The notes under the pieces were generated by a model, which was given only the letters and a program-made list of their open reading frames with translations, made no database searches and was not told the DNA's origin. Of a DNA stretch of 64,000 nucleotides, positions 53,338 through 63,863 are shown piece after piece (the first letter of the stretch is position 1; every line of letters begins with the position of its first letter). Source of the stretch: Pontiella agarivorans. GTDB taxonomy: Bacteria; Verrucomicrobiota; Kiritimatiellia; Kiritimatiellales; Pontiellaceae. The position numbers and the translations under genes are program-made. The stretch is taken from contig NZ_JARVCO010000012.1 in NCBI RefSeq assembly GCF_034531395.1, positions 1,116,001-1,180,000 of the forward strand. Reading direction: 5' to 3'.

Positions 53338-56145
53338 TTATTTAGCGAGGGGTTTTTTCAGTTCCACATCAATGAAGCGGAACATGCCGACAGGTATGTC
53401 GATCTTGACCGTCGATGAATCGGCCGGATCAAATATTTCCCCGCTGAGCAGGTCGGTCATTTTTGCAATTTCCAATCCCTGGATATGTACGACGGCCGTT
53501 TTGGCCGAGGGATTGATGTAGCCGCTGTCGAGCAGCGTGAGGCGGATGTGGTTCGGAGCGGACTGTGCCGCCACCCAGGCGACGTCACCACCGACTGTAA
53601 GCGGCAGTTTTTCGGCGGCTTCACGGATGTCGGCTTCGATGGTTTTATAATATTCGTCAGCCTTGAAGGTCCGGGTTCCATCGGCGGAATAGTAGTTCCG
53701 TCCGTCGGTAATATATTCTTTCAGAAGTCCTTTATATATCGGATGCAGATGATCTTCCATTTTTCCGCGCGGCGCATCCGGATCGGCAAAAACTCCGGAT
53801 TGGGGCGGAGTGATCATGACCACGCCGTTTTCAAAGGTTGGAAGAAAGTTGAGGCGCCGCTCATGGGCTCCGGCGGCATAGCGGGAATAATCCCATTCCA
53901 CGACAGGAGCTCCCGGCCATGAGCCATTCAGGCGCTGGAAGACCATGGGGTTGGCGTCCTCGTCGGCCTGATTGAAAAAGGTCATCCATTTGACATTGTT
54001 TCCATAGTTGATGAATCGTTCATCAGGTTTTTTCATGCTGAGGTGCACCGGGTTGAGACTGAGGAGTTCGTCGCGTTCCGGGACATAAAGAGCCCCTTTG
54101 GCAATGAGTTCCCAGAGAATCGACATGTAATCCTGATCGACCGCGAAGTTGTTGAGGTAGGTTGCACCGCAGGAAATGTTGTAGATCATCTGCCGCAGAA
54201 AATGGTTGGGCAGCATCTGGTGCGAATGCTGGCGGGTTCGATCAAAGCTGGTGTTATCCCGGGCGCAACGGGCTCCCCATTGGTCGACCGAACCGGCCGT
54301 CCAGATGCCCAGGCGGGAAGCAACGCTCTGCTCCATGGTTTTATCGGTGGTTTCCTCCAGAGCCGGGATAAATACATCGGCATATTCCCCGGAAATCAGT
54401 CCGGCCCAGAAGGGCATATAGACGATGCCGTTCCAGAAGGCATGCTTGGTGCGGACAAAGATTTTTGCCGCGCCTGTTTTTTGGGCATAGGCGGCCATCG
54501 GATAAAAATGATGCTCCATAACCCATGCAAAGGCGGCATCGTGCTGTTCGAGTTCCGGATAAATGGTTACCACTTTTTTGTTCTGTTTCTTCGCATAATC
54601 GAAGACGTTTTTCTGCGTTTGCAGACTGGTCTGGAACGGATCATTTCCATGGCCGCCCCAATAGGCAATGCCGGGAATGCCGGCGAAACAGTCCGTCAGC
54701 TCTTTGGTCATTTCTTTTTCGCTGAGGACATATTTTTTGCGGCGGTCACGTTTCGTCTGATAGTCCGGATGGAAGTCCGAACGGTCGACATTTTCAACAC
54801 GCGGCAGATGTTTCCCGCCCAGAAAGACCGGGCTGGGGTATCCCGATTTTTCGATGGCTTCAATATAGGGGCCGCCACTGCCTTTTCGACTTTCCGTCAT
54901 GAAGGTGACCACAGGGCGGTCAGTTTCCCATTCGGGTTTGGTGTAGCTCTTCAGCTGTTCGCGGGCCTGCGCGGTTTGTTCAAGTATTTCGGTGATGTTA
55001 CCGGGGGGAACCAGATTTTCGTATGCGGTTTTCCAGTATTTGGAATCGAGGTTGATGATGTGGATGCAGCTGCCGCCGCTCTGTGCACTGGCGAGAATGA
55101 TGAGATTTTTGTCATCCGGTTTCCACAGATCGTTATAGGCAAAGCGGTTGCTCAGCACTTCGGTTTTTTTCGGGTCCGCATTGAGGTCGGTCGGCATCAG
55201 CAGAATGCGGGAGCCGAAAAGAACAAAGAGTTTATCTTCACCGTTCTCGCGGATGAGTTCGGGCTGGGCAACGCGATAACCGAATCCGTCGATCTCACGA
55301 CGGAGTGAACTGATTTTGAAGGTATGATTTTTCGCTTTATCGATATCGAAGGAGCTGACGTGAGCATCCTGAATCATGGACGTGGCACCGTAGAGAATCT
55401 CCTCATTGCCATCGCCGTCAAGATCGGCCGTTTTAAGATCGCCAACGCCGCCGGCCGATTTTTTCAGTTGGTTGAACGGCTTCTCTTCCAGCGGTTCAAA
55501 GCAGTAAAAGTGTCCCCCCGCGCTGTTGCTCCAGATGACGCCGTGCACCAGCAGCACTTCAGAGCCGTCCTGGCGTTTCAGCGGGCGGATAAAGTTGGCG
55601 ACGTGTTTAAAGTCCTCCGGTCGGGATTTATAGGATTTTCCCCATGGCTTTTCTTTGGAATAGACCTTGGAATCAATGGTTTTGATGAGTTTGCCGTCGA
55701 CTGTAAGATAATAGAGGTTCATATCGAACCCGCCGCAGACCACGTAGGGGGTCCGGTCTTTATGAATCACGGTCACGGCATTCATCGGCGCATCGGACGG
55801 TTTGAACGACCAGAGCAGTTTTCCATCGGAGTCCAGGCAGTAGATAGAACCATCCGCGTTGGCGGCAAGAATTTCATCGGATGCATCGCCCGTGATGTCG
55901 GCGCACCATACGTCGCGGTTCATAAAGCCCGAGAGTTTGTTTTTCCAGCCGATGGAACCGTTCGGGGAAATGGCCATGATGGTGCCGTTGTAGTCGCTCC
56001 CGACGATATAGGTTGTCCCGTTTTTCCGAGCGGTCCGGACTTTGGACATGGTGTGCCCGGTTTCAATGCTGGTGATGGCGGAGGCCAATGCCGCACCTGT
56101 TGTAATCACCAGTGCCGTTGTTAAAACGCATTTCTTGTTGATCAT
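53338..56145 (-). CDS. Probable lambda-carrageenase-type glycoside hydrolase (GH150-like)
   Basis: 935 residues from ATG 56145, which has GAGG 11 bases upstream and starts a signal peptide (residues ~1-22, VITTGAALASA); the frame extends to 56262 but that part overlaps a terminator. Residues ~25-430 look like a beta-propeller with blade repeats (ITGDASDEILAANADGSIYC, DLDGDGNEEILYG). The C-terminal ~500 residues hold WGGHGNDPF, ETTDKTMEQSVASRLGIW, WGARCARDNTSFDRTRQHSH and ALYVPERDELLSLNPVHLSM. Length, propeller and these motifs fit the lambda-carrageenase CglA of Pseudoalteromonas (about 942 residues). It is paralogous to the larger protein at 57253-61086 over its whole length. The substrate remains an inference. 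Confidence 0.7.
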   Translation of the reverse strand: MINKKCVLTTALVITTGAALASAITSIETGHTMSKVRTARKNGTTYIVGSDYNGTIMAISPNGSIGWKNKLSGFMNRDVWCADITGDASDEILAANADGSIYCLDSDGKLLWSFKPSDAPMNAVTVIHKDRTPYVVCGGFDMNLYYLTVDGKLIKTIDSKVYSKEKPWGKSYKSRPEDFKHVANFIRPLKRQDGSEVLLVHGVIWSNSAGGHFYCFEPLEEKPFNQLKKSAGGVGDLKTADLDGDGNEEILYGATSMIQDAHVSSFDIDKAKNHTFKISSLRREIDGFGYRVAQPELIRENGEDKLFVLFGSRILLMPTDLNADPKKTEVLSNRFAYNDLWKPDDKNLIILASAQSGGSCIHIINLDSKYWKTAYENLVPPGNITEILEQTAQAREQLKSYTKPEWETDRPVVTFMTESRKGSGGPYIEAIEKSGYPSPVFLGGKHLPRVENVDRSDFHPDYQTKRDRRKKYVLSEKEMTKELTDCFAGIPGIAYWGGHGNDPFQTSLQTQKNVFDYAKKQNKKVVTIYPELEQHDAAFAWVMEHHFYPMAAYAQKTGAAKIFVRTKHAFWNGIVYMPFWAGLISGEYADVFIPALEETTDKTMEQSVASRLGIWTAGSVDQWGARCARDNTSFDRTRQHSHQMLPNHFLRQMIYNISCGATYLNNFAVDQDYMSILWELIAKGALYVPERDELLSLNPVHLSMKKPDERFINYGNNVKWMTFFNQADEDANPMVFQRLNGSWPGAPVVEWDYSRYAAGAHERRLNFLPTFENGVVMITPPQSGVFADPDAPRGKMEDHLHPIYKGLLKEYITDGRNYYSADGTRTFKADEYYKTIEADIREAAEKLPLTVGGDVAWVAAQSAPNHIRLTLLDSGYINPSAKTAVVHIQGLEIAKMTDLLSGEIFDPADSSTVKIDIPVGMFRFIDVELKKPLAK

Positions 56146-56252
56146 TAAATGAATCCTCGTTGTTTTGCGAAAGGAACGCGATGCAACAGGGGATTTGGAC
56201 GCAAATAACATGCACTCTTGCGTTTGGTTTATATGATATTTTGCCACAAAAA

Positions 56253-56279
56253 AAAGACGCAACTCAGTGTTGCGCCTTT
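56253..56279 (-). terminator. Terminator of the PEP-CTERM gene
   Basis: Stem AAAGACGCAAC / GTTGCGCCTTT (one wobble) with a T-run on the minus strand (TCTTTTTTTTG). It lies upstream of the carrageenase-like start, which supports the shorter start for that gene. Confidence 0.85.
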
Positions 56280-56301
56280 CCTGTGAAAATGAGCTTTCAG
56301 T

Positions 56302-57117
56302 TTACATCATGAATCTGCGACGGATAAACAGGATGCCGATTCCGATAGCGGAAATCATTCCCAGTGTGGCCGGTTCCGGAACGGCTGCGACTTCAAAGGA
56401 GGTTATTACGCGATCTGTCAGACCGTGGGTCGATTCGTTACGCGACGAGCTGAATCCGCCATACAGGTTGCCTGCGGTAAAGAGAGCCTCGGACGTTGTG
56501 ATTTCGCTGTCGGAGATCACTCCGATATCACTGGCAGTGGTCTCATTATAAAGAGAGATCGTGTAGGACCAGTCATTTGAGGAGGCTCCCGCAACCAGGT
56601 TAAAGGAAAATTTAATGGAATCACTGGTTGTGTCGCCGAGGTCATCCAGACCAAACAAAGTCTCGGAAAACGTAGAGCCGCCCAGGTCTTCGCCGAGGTC
56701 GGTTTTAATGCCGAGTTTGTAGCTGTCGGTACCCGATCGGTTCAGATAAGCACGCATTGTGCTGGTTCCATTTAGCGTATCGTTAAAGAGCAGACTGAAC
56801 GCATCATTGTTTCCGGTTTCGGCATTTTCAGTCCACGAAATGGTCTGAGATACCGTGAAATCGTTGTTGCCTGAATCGGCCCGAAGGTTTTCGCGGAATA
56901 CACCGTATTTCCAGGTGTCCGTTCCCGTGGCTAATACGACCGATCCGCCGCCGGTTGGGTCGACGGTGTTTCCGCTGGCATTCCAGGTGCTGCCTCCGGT
57001 GGCTCCCTGCTCGTCCAGCGCACCGGCGGTGTAGCCGGCTTCGTCAAAGCTCACTACTGTTGCCTGTGCGCTGAAAACAGCGGCAGCAACTGAGAGCCCG
57101 AGTATCAATTTTTTCAT
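56302..57117 (-). CDS. PEP-CTERM surface protein with shared jelly-roll domain
   Basis: 271 residues from ATG 57117 (AGGGG 7 bases upstream; the extension to 57213 is not coding). Signal peptide ~1-19. The body VVSFDEAGYTAGALDEQGAT ... SDSIKFSFNLVAGASSNDWS ... LYGGFSSSRNESTHGLTDR is homologous to the N-terminal domain of the 814-residue protein at 61422. C-terminal sorting signal VPEPATLGMISAIGIGILF followed by RRR. It lies between the two carrageenase-like genes on the same strand. Confidence 0.88.
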   Translation of the reverse strand: MKKLILGLSVAAAVFSAQATVVSFDEAGYTAGALDEQGATGGSTWNASGNTVDPTGGGSVVLATGTDTWKYGVFRENLRADSGNNDFTVSQTISWTENAETGNNDAFSLLFNDTLNGTSTMRAYLNRSGTDSYKLGIKTDLGEDLGGSTFSETLFGLDDLGDTTSDSIKFSFNLVAGASSNDWSYTISLYNETTASDIGVISDSEITTSEALFTAGNLYGGFSSSRNESTHGLTDRVITSFEVAAVPEPATLGMISAIGIGILFIRRRFMM

Positions 57118-57252
57118 ATTATGCCCCTTATTTATTTTTGCTTCATTATACCTGACTTCAACACGGTCATACTGACGGAAGCCACAGGGTTGATAAATAT
57201 GCATGGTTGCCAATTATATATGTTTTTCCGTCAGCGTTCGTTTTTGAGCGGA

Positions 57253-60200
57253 TTAGGGCTGCGTGATTTGAAGTCGGAAAAAAAGTTTTTCTTTGGCTGA
57301 ACCGTCGAGAGTCTGTTCGGCAAGGTTATAAGCAGGATTGGTAGTGGCTGCGCTCGAATAGGACGACCAGTTGGTGAGCCAGGGGCCTGAAACGAGGTTT
57401 GTGGTCCATTCCTGAATATAGCCGATGCCGGGGTTGCTGTGGACCAGCTGAGGATGCGCGAAGCCGACGGAGCTGTCCGGATAAAAATTAATCCGGGGGG
57501 AGAGCGGCATGGAGCCGGCATCTTTCGGATCGCCGTTGAGGGCATATTCGATTTGATCCGCTGCGCCGTCGCCGTCGGTGTCGGCCCAGGAGTTTCCGGG
57601 GAGTCCGTTTGTGCTGGAAAATTCGCCCCATCCGTTGTCCGGAAAAAAAGGTTCGCTCAGCTCGAGGTCGATAAAGCGCCAGAGTCCGAGCGGGACATTG
57701 ATTGTGGCGGAGTTCCCGGACACCGGGAAAACGGTGCCGTCCAGGACATCGGTCACGGCAATCGGCGAAACGGTATTGAAACGGACGGTTGCGGTGCGGC
57801 TTTTCGGATTGAGGTATCCGCTGTCGACCAGGGTGAGACGCAGATGGGTGGGGGAGGTCTGCGCTACGATCCAGGCAATATCGCCGCTGACGGTGACGGG
57901 CAGGCGGGATGCGCTGTTGGTGATGGCGTTGGCCACAGTGGTGTAGAACGTATCCGCAGCGTTGGTTGCGGTGCCGTCGCTGGAAATATAATACCGCCCG
58001 TTGCTGATAAACTCCTGCATAATGTTTTTATACATGGGATGAAGATGATCAGTCATGCGGCCGCGGGCGGCATTGGTGTTGGCAAATACGCCGTCCTGCA
58101 CCGGGGTCACCAGTACGGTGCCGTTCGGATAGGGCGGAATAAAATTCTGACGGCGGTCTTTCACGCCGGCGGCATAGCGCGAGAAATCCCATGCGGTGTT
58201 CGGGGCGGCCGGCCAGGTTCCGTTCATGCGGCTGAATACAAACGGGTTGTTCTGTTCGAAGGACTGATCGTAGAAGGTGGTCCATTTGTTGTTTTCACCG
58301 TCCTCGAGATAGTGTTCATCCGGATCATGCATGCTGAGATGAACCGGGTTGAAACTGACAATTTCTTCACGTTTCGGCACAAACAGCGCACCTTTGGCGA
58401 CGAGTTCCCAGGCGAGGCTTTGGTAGTCGGCATCCACATATGTAACGTTCAGCATGGTTGCTCCGCCGGCCAGATTGTAAACCATATTACGCAGAAAATG
58501 GTTCGGAAGGCGCTGGTAGGAGTGTTGGCGCGCGCGGTCGAAGCTGGGGTTGTCGCGGGAGCAGCGCATACCCCAGCTGTCGAGTGCCCCGCTGGCCCAC
58601 AGGCCCATACGTCCAACCACACTCAACTCGCAGGTTTTGTCTGTAGTTTCTTCCAGCAGCGAAGTGAATACTTCTGAAAATTCGCCGTTGCGTATGCGCT
58701 CCCAGGCCGGGAGGTAAACCGCGCCCTGCCAGAAGATATTTTTGTTACGGATGAAAATATTGGCGTTGTTGGTCCGGGCGTATTCTGCCAACGGATAAAA
58801 ACGGTCTTCCATAACCTTTGCGAAGGCTTCGGATGATCCGTTCATTTCCGGCCAGATGAGGCAGGTTTTTTCGCCGTTCTGCAGATCAATGATGCCTTTA
58901 AGCGTATCCAGACTGTAATAGTAGGGATCGTTGCCGTGACCGCCCCACATGGCGATGCCTTCGCCGCCGTCATCCTCGGCCCCTACCTGAGAAAGAATCC
59001 ATGCTTCGGTTTTGGTGTAGCTGCGACGGCTGTCGCGTTTGTCACGGTACTCGGGATTGGTTGCTAGCACGGTATCGCGGTTCCAATCGTCGGGATCCTG
59101 TGCAAAGCTGTCCCAGTAATAGTTCATGAAAACCGGCGTGTCCGAATAGGATATGACATCCTGGGCGACGGGATGAGTCGGGCTGGCGGCCGTCAGAATG
59201 ACTTCCACCGGATCGCGCTCCCATGCCGGTTTGGTGAAGGTGCTGAGCTGCGCTTTCGTCTGAGCCGTATTGGCGATAATGGCGGCAATTTTTCCGGGAG
59301 GATTCAGCGCTTCAAAGGCGGGCAGCCAGTTGGAATGCCGGGTGTCGATGATGTGGATACAGCTGCCGCCGCTTTGGGCCGAGGCAAGTACGATTTTTCC
59401 GGAATCCGGATCCTGCCAGAGATCGTTGAAGGCATAGGAGCACTGATAGTTTGCGGCTGAGCTGACGATGTTGCTGTCGCCGCTGGGTGTGGCGATGGAG
59501 AGGGTGGCGCCGCAGAGTACAAAATATTTAAAACTGTCGCCGTCGGGATAGCTGGCCACCTGTGTTACACGGTAGCCCGCAGAGCCTTTGTTGCCGGTGA
59601 TTACCCACTCATTCTGTTCGCCGGAGCGCGGATCAAAATGCACGATCGAGTCTCCGTTGAGGGCGGAGGAGCCGATGATGAGCTCGTCGTTTCCGTCGCC
59701 GTCGGGATCCATCACACGCAGGTCGCCGGAAACTTTCGGGCCGTTCACATCCACCGTTAGATACGGCATATCGGCGAGCGGATCAAAGAGGTAGAAAACA
59801 CCATTATCCTGCATGTGGCTCATGCTGCCGAGCAGAGCCAGCTTTTCGACGCCGTTGGTTATGAACGGGCGCAGGAAGTTGGCATTATGATATTTATCCG
59901 GCGGCGCGGTATTCCCCCAGGTGTTGGCAATGGAGTAGGGATGAGAATCCACCGATTTAACCGGAGCTCCCGCCGCATCGATATAGTGAATGAATTTGTC
60001 GAAAGCGCCGCAGACGACATAAGGCGTCCCATTGGAATGCACCGTGCAGACGGCATACATCGGCGGAAGATGTCCGCCGTCATTCGGCACATAATTCCAG
60101 ACATTGGAACCGGTGGAGCTGTCGACGCAGTAGACCCGTCCGTCGGCATTGGCAACGAGAATTTCGTCGGTGCCGTCGCCGGTGAGATCGTCGCACCAGA

Positions 60201-61086
60201 GATCATGATTCATGTAGCCCGAGAGGTGGTTGGTCCAGAGGGCGGTGCCGTCCCAGGTCATGCCGATCAGGGCCCCTTCGTAGCTGCTTCCGATGAGCAG
60301 GGTATTTGTATCGACGGCGGCTGTACGTACTTTCTGGATGGTCCAGCCGGTATCGATAGAGGTCAACGGTTGCGGCATATTATGATCGATGCCGGTTGAA
60401 AGCATGACATTGTCCACTATACCGCCACTGCCGTTTTCTGTGGCCAAGCGGATTCCGATATAGTCATATTCGCTGATATCATCCAGCCCGCTGCTGAAAG
60501 AGGATAACGGCAGATCAACCGAAAAGGTCTGGTTCAGGCCGGCTGTTCCGGTGAATGTTCCGCGCGATTGATTGGCTTCGGTGGTGCTGTAGGTGCCGTT
60601 CAGCAGGTCGGTGTAGGCCGTTGTGCCGTCCAGTGTGCCGATTTTTGGTGAGGCGTAATTGATGCCGACAAAAAATTTGCCGCTTTCCGGTGTACCCGTT
60701 TTTTTCCAGGCAATGACCTGATAAGTCAGATTAAGCTGTGTGCCGGTGGCGTCGGATGGAGGCATCCAGTCGATGGATAAGTGCACAACATTTCCAGAGG
60801 CGGATCCGATGGAAACCACCTGAGCCAGTCCAGCCTGCGAGCGGGTTGCGGTGTTCGATGCACTTCCGTTGCTGAGATCCCAGCTGCCTTTATGGTCCCA
60901 GCCGGCATCGAGTTCATCGAAGGAGGTTTCATTACTTCCGGTGTTCGCTTCGGTGATGCCGGATGAGAAGGGACCGTCGACGAGAAAATCGCCATAGACT
61001 TTTCCAATCATTGGAAGCAGCATCACCGTTGCAAGGCTGCAGAGCTTTCTGCTGGATATCCGAATTTTCCTCTTTGACTTGTGCAT
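57253..61086 (-). CDS. Large lambda-carrageenase-type glycoside hydrolase (GH150-like) with added domains
   Basis: 1277 residues from the second ATG (61086), which has AAGGAGG 7 bases upstream; the first ATG (61092) overlaps the ribosome site. Signal peptide, then an extra N-terminal jelly-roll domain (residues ~35-240, DELDAGWDHKGSWDLSNGSA), a propeller (LTGDGTDEILVANADGRVYC) and the hydrolase-like region with WGGHGNDPYYYSLDT, ETTDKTCELSVVGRMGLW, WGMRCSRDNPSFDRARQHSY and ALFVPKREEIVSFNPVHLSM, matching the neighbour at 53338 throughout. The C-terminus has a calcium-binding repeat (DTDGDGAADQIEYALNGDP) and a small sandwich ending EKLFFRLQITQP. Secreted; the substrate is inferred. Confidence 0.7.
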   Translation of the reverse strand: MHKSKRKIRISSRKLCSLATVMLLPMIGKVYGDFLVDGPFSSGITEANTGSNETSFDELDAGWDHKGSWDLSNGSASNTATRSQAGLAQVVSIGSASGNVVHLSIDWMPPSDATGTQLNLTYQVIAWKKTGTPESGKFFVGINYASPKIGTLDGTTAYTDLLNGTYSTTEANQSRGTFTGTAGLNQTFSVDLPLSSFSSGLDDISEYDYIGIRLATENGSGGIVDNVMLSTGIDHNMPQPLTSIDTGWTIQKVRTAAVDTNTLLIGSSYEGALIGMTWDGTALWTNHLSGYMNHDLWCDDLTGDGTDEILVANADGRVYCVDSSTGSNVWNYVPNDGGHLPPMYAVCTVHSNGTPYVVCGAFDKFIHYIDAAGAPVKSVDSHPYSIANTWGNTAPPDKYHNANFLRPFITNGVEKLALLGSMSHMQDNGVFYLFDPLADMPYLTVDVNGPKVSGDLRVMDPDGDGNDELIIGSSALNGDSIVHFDPRSGEQNEWVITGNKGSAGYRVTQVASYPDGDSFKYFVLCGATLSIATPSGDSNIVSSAANYQCSYAFNDLWQDPDSGKIVLASAQSGGSCIHIIDTRHSNWLPAFEALNPPGKIAAIIANTAQTKAQLSTFTKPAWERDPVEVILTAASPTHPVAQDVISYSDTPVFMNYYWDSFAQDPDDWNRDTVLATNPEYRDKRDSRRSYTKTEAWILSQVGAEDDGGEGIAMWGGHGNDPYYYSLDTLKGIIDLQNGEKTCLIWPEMNGSSEAFAKVMEDRFYPLAEYARTNNANIFIRNKNIFWQGAVYLPAWERIRNGEFSEVFTSLLEETTDKTCELSVVGRMGLWASGALDSWGMRCSRDNPSFDRARQHSYQRLPNHFLRNMVYNLAGGATMLNVTYVDADYQSLAWELVAKGALFVPKREEIVSFNPVHLSMHDPDEHYLEDGENNKWTTFYDQSFEQNNPFVFSRMNGTWPAAPNTAWDFSRYAAGVKDRRQNFIPPYPNGTVLVTPVQDGVFANTNAARGRMTDHLHPMYKNIMQEFISNGRYYISSDGTATNAADTFYTTVANAITNSASRLPVTVSGDIAWIVAQTSPTHLRLTLVDSGYLNPKSRTATVRFNTVSPIAVTDVLDGTVFPVSGNSATINVPLGLWRFIDLELSEPFFPDNGWGEFSSTNGLPGNSWADTDGDGAADQIEYALNGDPKDAGSMPLSPRINFYPDSSVGFAHPQLVHSNPGIGYIQEWTTNLVSGPWLTNWSSYSSAATTNPAYNLAEQTLDGSAKEKLFFRLQITQP

Positions 61087-61421
61087 GGTCATCCCTCCTT
61101 AATTAAAATCTTTTATGACAGATTGATTGAAGATAACGGGTTTTTTAGAGGGTTAGCTATAGGTTAAAACGTATTGTTTATGCGGATAACCGCCATATAT
61201 ACCTCGCTGGAGGCGGGGTGGTGGTGCTGCGACAGAACGGGACATAGGCGGGGATTTTGTCTGGCTGGCAAGATTTCGCATCTTTCTTGCAATATGCCGT
61301 ATAGCCTGATCGCTCAGAATACGCTCTTATTTCCTTTTTTAGGCAATCTGCATTAGCAGAAACGCTCCTTCCATATGATAAACGGATGCGAATCCGTATA
61401 ACTCCAAAAGGAAATATCAGG
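61087..61421. other. Divergent promoter region
   Basis: 335 bases between the divergent carrageenase-like gene and the 814-residue gene, without a gene. It must hold promoters for both. A GNRA-loop hairpin (ACGGAT GCGA ATCCGT, 61382-61397) lies about 25 bases before the plus-strand start and could shape its leader. No clear -35/-10 pair or operator stands out. Confidence 0.5.
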
Positions 61422-63863
61422 ATGAAAATTAGAACACGATATGCTTTCGCATTGGGCCTGGGTCTGGTGCAGGCTGCAGCGGTACAGGCCGCTACCGTCA
61501 ATTTTACTGCCGCCGAGGGGTATGTGACCGGGCCCCTGGATAACAACAGCAACTGGAGTGCGGCCCAATGGACTGTTGATGCCGTTGCCGGCAGCTGTAC
61601 CGAAGATGGCTATAACAATGCGGTGTATACGGCCGAACAGGGTGTGTTTACTGAGGGCAAGGCGTACAGGGTGTCCGCCACATTCACTTTTCAGGATTCT
61701 TTCAATGTAACGAATGCACTCCGGAAGCCATTCTTTAATACCGGTTTTGCCGATACCAATGAGGTGGACAGTCTGAATAATCAGCTCGTGCTTTCATTTG
61801 ATCGCAATGGAACAGGGTTTGACATCGACCTGCAGACCGACTGGGGTTCTGGTGGAGGTGACAATGTGACCGGAGCGTCCGGCAGTGCCAGTGACACCTT
61901 TTCAACTGCGGATGTGGGTATTGTGCGTGGAGATGATGAGGGCAGCTCGGATCTGGTAAGCGATCGTATTCAGCTGACTTTTCAGCTGATCGCCGGTGAA
62001 ACAACGAATGACTGGACGGGGACCGCTGTGGTAACCAACCTGGATACCGGAGTTGAAATTGGCGGCTTTACGGAAAGCGGACTGAGTTTTGATGCTTCTG
62101 AGCTTTACGGTTCTATCGGAGTAGGACAAAGCGACAGTAATGCAGCTGTCACTAACCGTACGGTCCATTCTTTCTCGTTTAATACGTTTGTTCCCCCGGA
62201 ACCTCCGCCGGTGATTGTGCAGTGGGGGAATATCGGCGGCGATGCGGGCATCGTTACCAATGATACTTCCAACGGAAAACCTTATCCCACGACGTACACC
62301 GCAGGTGCTGTTCACAGCCCGACCAATGTGGCTTATTACACCAACAGCACAGACCGTACTCCGGATTACAATCTTGCGGTATCTGAAGCGTACGGAACGG
62401 CTTTTGTGAAAAACGGAGGCGATTACATACAGCTGGGTAAAAATAAAGAGTTCTATGAAGGCATGGTGGTCTGGGAAAACTTTCTGACGAACAACACATT
62501 CGTTAAAACGCTGGCCGCTGAGGTTCAGGGAACCGGCGCGGGCTTCATTGCAGAAAGTAATTCCACATACCGTTTCGTGATCCAGAAAGGAACCGGCGAA
62601 TGGTACGCCAGTGAGCCGACCGTTTTTGATAAGGGATTCACTTCCGGTGCCGATGTGGAGGCGGATGCGCTGAGCTGGTATGATTTTACTCCGATTACCG
62701 CAGGATCAGCAACCGTCGGTACGACGATTGAAGACATCGATATGACCGATGTTAAGGCTGTTGGTGTTTACGGTCTGATGGGTGGAATCACGAATGGCAA
62801 GTTCCAGGCGTTCAATGTGCGCTACTTCAAAGCAACGGCGGTTCCGGGACCGACTTCAACGACGCTGCTGCAGTGGGGGGCACCGGGCGGAGAGCTCGAT
62901 ATTGTTACGGCAAATGTCACCCTCGGCGAGGCGCCTTATCCGACAACTTATGTGGATGGCGAAACCAACAGTCCGGTCGTCGGTGCGGATTATTATCCCA
63001 ACAACACGGATCGTTCGCCGCTCTTTAACTATGCCTGCGGTGCGGCATATGGCGGGGCACAGGTCTATGATATTGAAGACGGTGATGCCATTCATTTCGG
63101 CAAAGGAGTGGAAGAATATGAAGCTATGGTGACCTGGGAAGACTTCCTGCAGGAACCGACGCTGGTTCAGAACCTCGAGCTGGATATCCGCACTCAGAAC
63201 AGTGCCACAAACGGTGCGGTACGCTTCCTGGTGAAAAGTGCCTCCAGCGGAAACTGGTATGCCAGTGAAGCTTTTGAGGTGGTTAAAGCATATGCCACGC
63301 TAAACGGATCGCTCTCCAGTCTGTCCTGGTATGAATTCACGCCGCACGATGGCGGAACGGCGTCCGTCGGTGCTGCTGCGGTAATTGATACGGAAGATAT
63401 TGCGGCGGTAGGTTATTACGCTGTTGTTCAGGGTTCTGGCGGATATCTGGCCGTACAGGTTCGTTCCTTCAAGGCGGTCGGAATTACCGGTTCGCTGCCG
63501 ACCGCGTACGATCTCTGGGCCGCAGGTCAGGGGGTTACGGGAGCTGATAGCGATGATGATGATGGAGACGGTCTCAGCAACTTCGGCGAATATGTATTCG
63601 GCGGCAATCCGGTTCTTCCGTCCGGAGCGAATGATCAGGGAGCACAGCCCGAATTCGATGCAGCGACCGGCGTATATACCGTCTCACTGGTAGGCGACAG
63701 CTCGATCGAAGCCTATGTTGTGTCGACTACGGATCTGCTTCTCGGAGAGTGGACGACCAATGAAACCATTACAGTAACGGTGGATGATGGTGAGCTGAGT
63801 GAATACACCACAAACCTCGGAACTGGAGAGAACAAGAAGTTTATTAAGCTCGAAGTAAAATAA
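61422..63863 (+). CDS. Secreted multidomain beta-sandwich protein
   Basis: 814 residues from ATG 61422 (MKIRTRYAFALGLG). Signal peptide ~1-24. Residues ~25-260 are a domain homologous to the PEP-CTERM protein at 56302 (NFTAAEGYVTGPLDNNSNW, LIAGETTNDWTG, ELYGSIGVGQSDSNAAVTNR). Two tandem ~205-residue repeats follow, opening VQWGNIGGDAGIVTNDTSNG and LQWGAPGGELDIVTANVTLG, each with YPTTY, NSTDRTPDYN/NNTDRSPLFN and WYASE. Then a calcium-binding linker (DSDDDDGDGLSNFGEYVFG) and a terminal sandwich (FIKLEVK). No catalytic motif is visible; carbohydrate binding is inferred. It is divergent from the large carrageenase-like gene. Confidence 0.75.
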   Translation: MKIRTRYAFALGLGLVQAAAVQAATVNFTAAEGYVTGPLDNNSNWSAAQWTVDAVAGSCTEDGYNNAVYTAEQGVFTEGKAYRVSATFTFQDSFNVTNALRKPFFNTGFADTNEVDSLNNQLVLSFDRNGTGFDIDLQTDWGSGGGDNVTGASGSASDTFSTADVGIVRGDDEGSSDLVSDRIQLTFQLIAGETTNDWTGTAVVTNLDTGVEIGGFTESGLSFDASELYGSIGVGQSDSNAAVTNRTVHSFSFNTFVPPEPPPVIVQWGNIGGDAGIVTNDTSNGKPYPTTYTAGAVHSPTNVAYYTNSTDRTPDYNLAVSEAYGTAFVKNGGDYIQLGKNKEFYEGMVVWENFLTNNTFVKTLAAEVQGTGAGFIAESNSTYRFVIQKGTGEWYASEPTVFDKGFTSGADVEADALSWYDFTPITAGSATVGTTIEDIDMTDVKAVGVYGLMGGITNGKFQAFNVRYFKATAVPGPTSTTLLQWGAPGGELDIVTANVTLGEAPYPTTYVDGETNSPVVGADYYPNNTDRSPLFNYACGAAYGGAQVYDIEDGDAIHFGKGVEEYEAMVTWEDFLQEPTLVQNLELDIRTQNSATNGAVRFLVKSASSGNWYASEAFEVVKAYATLNGSLSSLSWYEFTPHDGGTASVGAAAVIDTEDIAAVGYYAVVQGSGGYLAVQVRSFKAVGITGSLPTAYDLWAAGQGVTGADSDDDDGDGLSNFGEYVFGGNPVLPSGANDQGAQPEFDAATGVYTVSLVGDSSIEAYVVSTTDLLLGEWTTNETITVTVDDGELSEYTTNLGTGENKKFIKLEVK

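Follow-up and report, generated by a model that had tools for sequence, protein, structure and literature searches.

A pair of GH150 genes in Pontiella agarivorans points to a remote relationship between lambda-carrageenases and GH98 endo-beta-1,4-galactosidases

We analyzed a 64,000-nucleotide stretch of DNA (the window) from the seafloor-dwelling Kiritimatiellota bacterium Pontiella agarivorans NLcol2T, whose assembly comprises 4,436,865 bp in 12 contigs, one of them of 1,265,434 bp. The window carries two GH150 genes whose products are probably secreted endo-lambda-carrageenases that would act by inversion with a GH98-type acid/base pair, be held at the cell surface, and feed a linked pathway of sulfatases, GH110, and GH2 enzymes. 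The pair is a fresh example of an established family, in a strain where GH150 was not described. A predicted structure and profile comparisons indicate distant kinship between the GH150 catalytic barrel and the GH98 endo-beta-1,4-galactosidases, a result that specialists would not expect and that makes the GH150 catalytic machinery testable. The features of the window are listed here; residue numbers of the small copy follow a 974-aa frame that is open from a TTG at 56262.

53338..56145, minus strand: small putative GH150 lambda-carrageenase, CglA-type, 935 aa, ATG at 56145 (Pfam and identity to CglA)
55054..56010, minus strand: beta-propeller domain of the small copy, aa 85-403 (PF25292; AlphaFold2 model with WD40-type propeller matches at Z about 28)
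53677..54789, minus strand: catalytic (beta/alpha) barrel CGLA_M of the small copy, aa 492-862 (PF25290; core model with pLDDT 86, GH98 best in PDB)
54553..54555, minus strand: codon of Glu570 (CglA Glu533), proposed general acid (invariant in 114/114 GH150 sequences; aligned with the GH98 catalytic Glu)
54256..54258, minus strand: codon of Asp669 (CglA Asp631), candidate general base, with less certainty than for the acid (invariant in 114/114; beside the position of BoGH98 Asp467)
53362..53598, minus strand: CGLA_C beta domain of the small copy, aa 889-967 (PF25291)
56302..57213, minus strand: PEP-CTERM protein between the enzymes, with one M1 module and a PEP-CTERM anchor (TIGR02595, 19.9 bits, cut-off 16)
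57253..61086, minus strand: large putative GH150 lambda-carrageenase, CglA-type, 1277 aa, extended by further modules at both termini (Pfam and identity to CglA)
57973..59088, minus strand: catalytic barrel CGLA_M of the large copy, in which Glu749 and Asp847 correspond to small-copy Glu570 and Asp669 (Pfam and alignment)
57256..57657, minus strand: C-terminal module of about 130 aa with a DxDxDG loop, large copy (no Pfam family; matches elsewhere in the genome)
60397..60990, minus strand: M2 module, which extends the large copy at its N terminus, aa 35-232 (present seven times in the genome)
61386..63863, plus strand: divergent 825-aa protein with an M1-like domain, two M3 modules, and a C-terminal module (module matches; orthologue in genome G380)

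Both genes are intact. The small copy lies in a minus-strand open reading frame at 53338-56262 and probably starts at 56145 (MINKKC); for the large copy, the minus-strand frame is 57253-61092, and its ATG at 61086 is preceded by GGAGG. Beta-prop_CGLA, CGLA_M, and CGLA_C matched both products in that order and above the curated Pfam cut-offs (E 1.8e-136, 6.5e-185, and 1.5e-32 for the small copy; 2.4e-114, 9.5e-187, and 5e-33 for the large copy). The two are 44% identical across their common part. CglA of Pseudoalteromonas carrageenovora, the founding GH150 enzyme (plasmid NZ_CP027525, locus L060 5345-8173), shares 49% identity with the small copy over 933 columns and 46% with the large copy over 917 columns. 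The initial annotation had described two proteins of 935 and 1277 residues with a common propeller-plus-hydrolase layout and had called both GH150-like; the domain matches, at E 1e-32 to 1e-187, and the identity to CglA confirm both statements. It had also listed motifs common to the copies, and WGGHGNDP, EETTDK, and FDRxRQHS are indeed common to both; LSxNPVHLSM is exact in the small copy only and reads VSFNPVHLSM in the large one. The profile search that it proposed, with rival families included, agreed as well: the C-terminal half matched nothing but GH150 families at E values up to 10, and the other Pfam matches of the two proteins were to weak propeller-repeat families. Judged by eye, both N termini have a basic stretch followed by a hydrophobic segment ending in small residues, as would suit secreted proteins. 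Promoter and terminator scans returned sites no more numerous than in shuffled sequences.

Relatives of the pair occur well beyond the founding genus. A scan of GTDB genomes found 76 GH150 loci, seven of them contributed by P. sulfatireligans, in Bacteroidota, Planctomycetota, Verrucomicrobiota, Kiritimatiellota, Lentisphaerota, and Pseudomonadota. This wide spread over six phyla rules out a restriction to Pseudoalteromonas and displaces the initial picture of a small family best known from that genus. The pair was also thought to extend the reach of GH150 to a PVC bacterium; PVC members had already been recorded (Rhodopirellula sp. SWK7, PMC6262041). The small copy shares 54% identity with a GH150 (locus L067) of Maribacter vaceletii, the source species of the characterized OUC-CglA (PMC11202985). 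The P. agarivorans genome itself holds eight GH150 genes, six of the CglA type and two of the GH150B type; the latter (contigs C2 and C12) are 44-46% identical over their full length to GH150B, the second Pseudoalteromonas enzyme (P. carrageenovora and P. distincta U2A). Identity of the window pair to GH150B, which forms a separate clade, is merely 22-24%.

The tree was built with FastTree from 115 sequences, and its joins deep among long branches are unsure (FastTree warning). The small copy groups with other Pontiellaceae orthologues within a branch that also contains CglA, and the large copy falls in a separate Kiritimatiellota clade of mostly large copies. Both have orthologues in the sister genome G380 at 81-87% identity, compared with 44% to each other; with the different clades, this excludes a recent tandem duplication. 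Sequence comparison thus indicates that the two are ancient paralogues, so that the proposed tandem stands as an adjacent paralogous pair and falls as a recent duplication. The whole block is kept in G380, in the form of the small copy, the PEP-CTERM gene, the large copy, and a divergent 816-aa gene, and small and large copies adjoin in G084 too. In G172, a small and a large copy occur together with GH2 and GH110, and this large copy sits in another clade; large copies therefore probably arose more than once, via module addition. G380 also holds a CglA-type GH150 in two overlapping frames (L059 8183-10953; 478 and 452 aa), likely a frameshift or pseudogene.

We also observed a third deep GH150-like clade (L119, L121, L123-L127, L022-L024), here called C-type, at about 26-29% identity to both known types. 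Its sources are metagenome-assembled genomes named Paludibacter, Opitutaceae, Verrucomicrobia, and Draconibacterium, among others. GH110 was absent from the tested genomes of this clade, whose substrate is probably other than lambda-carrageenan.

Genes for the later steps of lambda-carrageenan breakdown are present in the genome. GH110 is encoded at C12:1193840-1195696, 14 kb past the end of the window, by a gene whose product is 53% identical to a Pseudoalteromonas alpha-galactosidase. Its neighbors encode sulfatases, a galactose mutarotase-type aldose epimerase, a melibiase-type alpha-galactosidase, a GH42-like protein, and AraC-type regulators. On contig C6, a GH2 gene (41.5% identity) and a sulfatase gene lie between two GH150 genes, and C12:851676-861744 holds a GH150B-type gene, a sulfatase, GH2, and GH110 together. 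Among the 387 genomes of the phylum set, GH110 (PF23763) is present in 7/7 with a CglA- or GH150B-type GH150 versus 68/387 overall, with a p value of 4e-6 that is generous because the seven genomes are partly dependent; it is present in 0/4 with other or weak GH150-like matches. Within the genus, the corresponding counts are 4/4 versus 0/6, and in all seven genomes GH110 is on the same contig as a GH150 and within about 30 kb of it. Two paralogues of about 630 aa (L040 11832-13733 and L041 9909-11786) were also seen near GH110 and sulfatase genes; they have one N-terminal membrane segment (KGAPSGFxISIxIHA), and the member scanned gave a weak SHD1 match and otherwise no family.

The published description of P. 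agarivorans NLcol2T reports 165 sulfatases, with S1_8 and S1_15 among the abundant subfamilies, and growth on agar and a carrageenan; the growth tests covered agar, one carrageenan type, and fucoidan. The words "GH150" and "lambda" are both absent from its main text. We counted about 150 S1 sulfatase matches in the 4.4-Mb genome, in dense clusters on C2, C6, C8, C10, and C12. From its eight GH150 genes and the accompanying GH110, GH2, and sulfatases, P. agarivorans is predicted to grow on lambda-carrageenan, which goes unmentioned in that description.

The two enzymes may be GH150 by descent and yet act mainly on a related sulfated galactan, such as another beta-1,4-linked galactan or a lambda-type carrageenan that is hybrid or incompletely sulfated, with the eight copies having diverged by sulfation pattern. 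Specialization is suggested by the number of copies in one genome and by the different clades of the window genes, and the GH150B of P. distincta yields incompletely sulfated products (PMC12549532). However, the small copy lies within the CglA branch at 49% identity to CglA, and relatives of the linked GH110 take off the alpha-1,3-galactose of lambda-carrageenan itself. We regard a related galactan as a possible but rather unlikely main substrate and favor lambda-carrageenan.

We modeled the small copy with AlphaFold2 (pLDDT 92.5), in which a propeller is followed by a (beta/alpha) barrel and finally by a beta domain. Compared with the PDB over its full length, this model matched GH98 best. 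A full-length VIA run returned WD40-type propellers only and was silent on the barrel; the core was therefore modeled alone (pLDDT 86). With this predicted core, the first 16 Foldseek rows were all GH98, as were the first 21 VIA rows, with Z of 13.9-17.3 over 375-404 residues. Independently of structure, comparing a profile of 104 GH150 sequences with one of 8 GH98 sequences, the latter all above the Pfam GH98 cut-off, gave a probability of 95.5% and E 1.6e-8. The C-type clade alone gave the strongest link to GH98, at 98.1% and E 1e-13; the CglA type alone was weak, at 67% with eight GH98 sequences and 11% with four. Controls (reversed, GH2, GH110, and sulfatase) reached <= 1.2%, and 15 block-shuffled profiles at most 19%. 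The signal needs diverse alignments and was lost with one or two GH98 sequences.

A search of PDB chains by sequence with the core profile found nothing significant (best E 0.11), so the GH98 link rests on fold and on profile-profile comparison. PF08306, the GH98 catalytic domain, had no match from the core by hmmscan at E up to 10, where only CGLA_M and CGLA_C were listed; given the profile and fold link, this makes GH150 a remote relative of GH98 and not a member. Convergence within the common TIM barrel fold would also give such a likeness, in which case the catalytic residues would not be transferable. That fold is very common, the next VIA match after GH98, to GH42 (Z 13.0), and the alpha-agarase match (Z 12.7) come near the lowest GH98 row, and small GH98 profiles yield no signal. 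Against convergence, the top rows of both structure aligners are all GH98, sequence profiles by themselves detect the relation, most strongly in the C-type clade, and glutamates of GH150 and GH98 share one column in three different alignments. We consider convergence improbable.

Common descent of the barrels is the reading that we prefer. Taken further, GH150 and GH98 likely form one endo-beta-1,4-galactosidase superfamily with a common ancestor and general acid, of which the C-type clade, with its probably different substrate, would be the closest surviving link. If so, algal lambda-carrageenases and enzymes that cut human blood-group antigens descend from one ancestor. In the literature covered, no paper named GH98 and GH150 together. 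Separately, P. agarivorans carries a divergent GH98-like gene (1005 aa; C2:912670-913377, L191 and L195) near sulfatase genes.

Seven residues, His538, Glu570, Lys606, Glu636, Arg665, Asp669, and Asp791 (small-copy numbers), are invariant in 114/114 GH150 sequences, including all eight of this genome. The column shared in the three alignments pairs Glu570 (CglA Glu533) with the GH98 general acid, which is Glu411 in RgGH98 (PMC8730463) and Glu361 in BoGH98, where Asp467 is the other key residue (PMC4491172). Asp467 falls in or beside a gap, and the nearest invariant GH150 acid is Asp669 (CglA Asp631); Asp669 as base is therefore less certain than Glu570 as acid. From the alignments, Asp669 is most likely the base, with Glu636 and Asp791 as possible alternatives. 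OUC-CglA without its PQQ-like region keeps reduced lambda-carrageenase activity (PMC11202985), and catalysis is therefore in the rest of the protein. A partial literature search found no assignment of GH150 catalytic residues, and a 2025 pathway study could not crystallize GH150 (PMC12549532). The GH98 link thus names one acid, CglA Glu533, and a few candidate bases as targets for mutagenesis.

GH98 enzymes are inverting, and the founding CglA paper reportedly found inversion of anomeric configuration. We propose that both window enzymes begin lambda-carrageenan breakdown outside the cell. The barrel would cleave beta-1,4 linkages in the sulfated galactan by an inverting mechanism, in a cleft formed with the propeller, and by homology to GH98 Glu570 would be the general acid and Asp669 most likely the general base. 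At the cell surface, both enzyme and substrate would be retained by the PEP-CTERM module protein together with the extra modules on the large copy. The oligosaccharides would then be trimmed to galactose by the linked sulfatases, GH110 alpha-galactosidase, and GH2 beta-galactosidase. We found no reported activity of any Kiritimatiellota GH150 in the literature covered.

The protein between the enzymes had been called a PEP-CTERM protein, and this holds: it is over the cut-off of NCBIfam TIGR02595, with a PF07589 score slightly under that family's own cut-off, and the genome has one exosortase gene (PF09721), on contig C2. Its orthologue is at the same place in G380 (L049 12361-13227). Its M1 module is also fused to the N terminus of another GH150 of this genome (C12:1241008; L043 aa 65-278). 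The large copy had been credited with a gained N-terminal jelly roll; the extension, M2, is indeed a separate module, of putative jelly-roll fold. In G084, M2 forms a PEP-CTERM protein of its own next to a GH150 (L055 1984-2757), and elsewhere in P. agarivorans it accompanies a pectate-lyase-like domain and CBM96. In G225 and other genomes, large GH150s have M3 as their N-domain; four of the six M3 copies in P. agarivorans are in the window cluster, and one is on a GH42-like protein. The 825-aa protein with two M3 modules had no Pfam match and no catalytic domain that we recognized, and its orthologue adjoins the same pair in G380 (L049 17496-19946). No mutual relation of M1, M2, and M3 was detectable with hhalign (all under 1%).

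Carbohydrate-binding modules typically show such swapping between enzymes and free-standing surface proteins. M1-M3 are probably interchangeable modules, GH150-fused or standalone, with a putative glycan-binding role, and their shuffling between GH150 and PEP-CTERM proteins is a possible way of holding polysaccharide at the cell surface. At the C terminus of the large copy, a calcium-repeat region had been suggested; what we found is one DxDxDG loop and a beta-rich stretch, with no repeat. This module has 25 matches genome-wide (L160-L184), nearly all at the extreme C terminus, and is possibly a sorting or anchoring domain. The matches often end in xLFFRLxITQP or KFIKLxVE and are unknown to Pfam and NCBIfam. 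The additions had been read as divergence in anchoring or substrate; as mobile modules common to other secreted proteins, they tell of binding or anchoring more than of a new substrate. Least likely of the alternatives is that one enzyme has little activity and serves chiefly in binding or anchoring. The large copy would be the first candidate, given its putative binding modules at both ends (a feature of large copies in other genomes too), but it keeps every GH150-invariant residue, and its CGLA_M score is no lower than the small copy's.

The window proteins share with CglA of P. carrageenovora the succession of propeller, barrel, and C-terminal domain as well as all invariant residues. Unlike CglA, the large copy adds the N-terminal module and the C-terminal DxDxDG module, and the Kiritimatiellota copies are clustered with PEP-CTERM module proteins. 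The lambda-carrageenan cascade of P. distincta U2A (PMC12549532) likewise has GH150 of both types, GH110, and GH2, and the order of steps proposed here is consistent with it; in contrast, the P. agarivorans pathway genes are scattered over several loci, and surface capture may use the PEP-CTERM and module proteins. GH98 shares the barrel arrangement of the GH150 core and its aligned catalytic glutamate, and many GH98 enzymes act on beta-1,4-linked galactose, but identity is about 10%, GH98 is without the CGLA propeller, and the second catalytic residue is unaligned.
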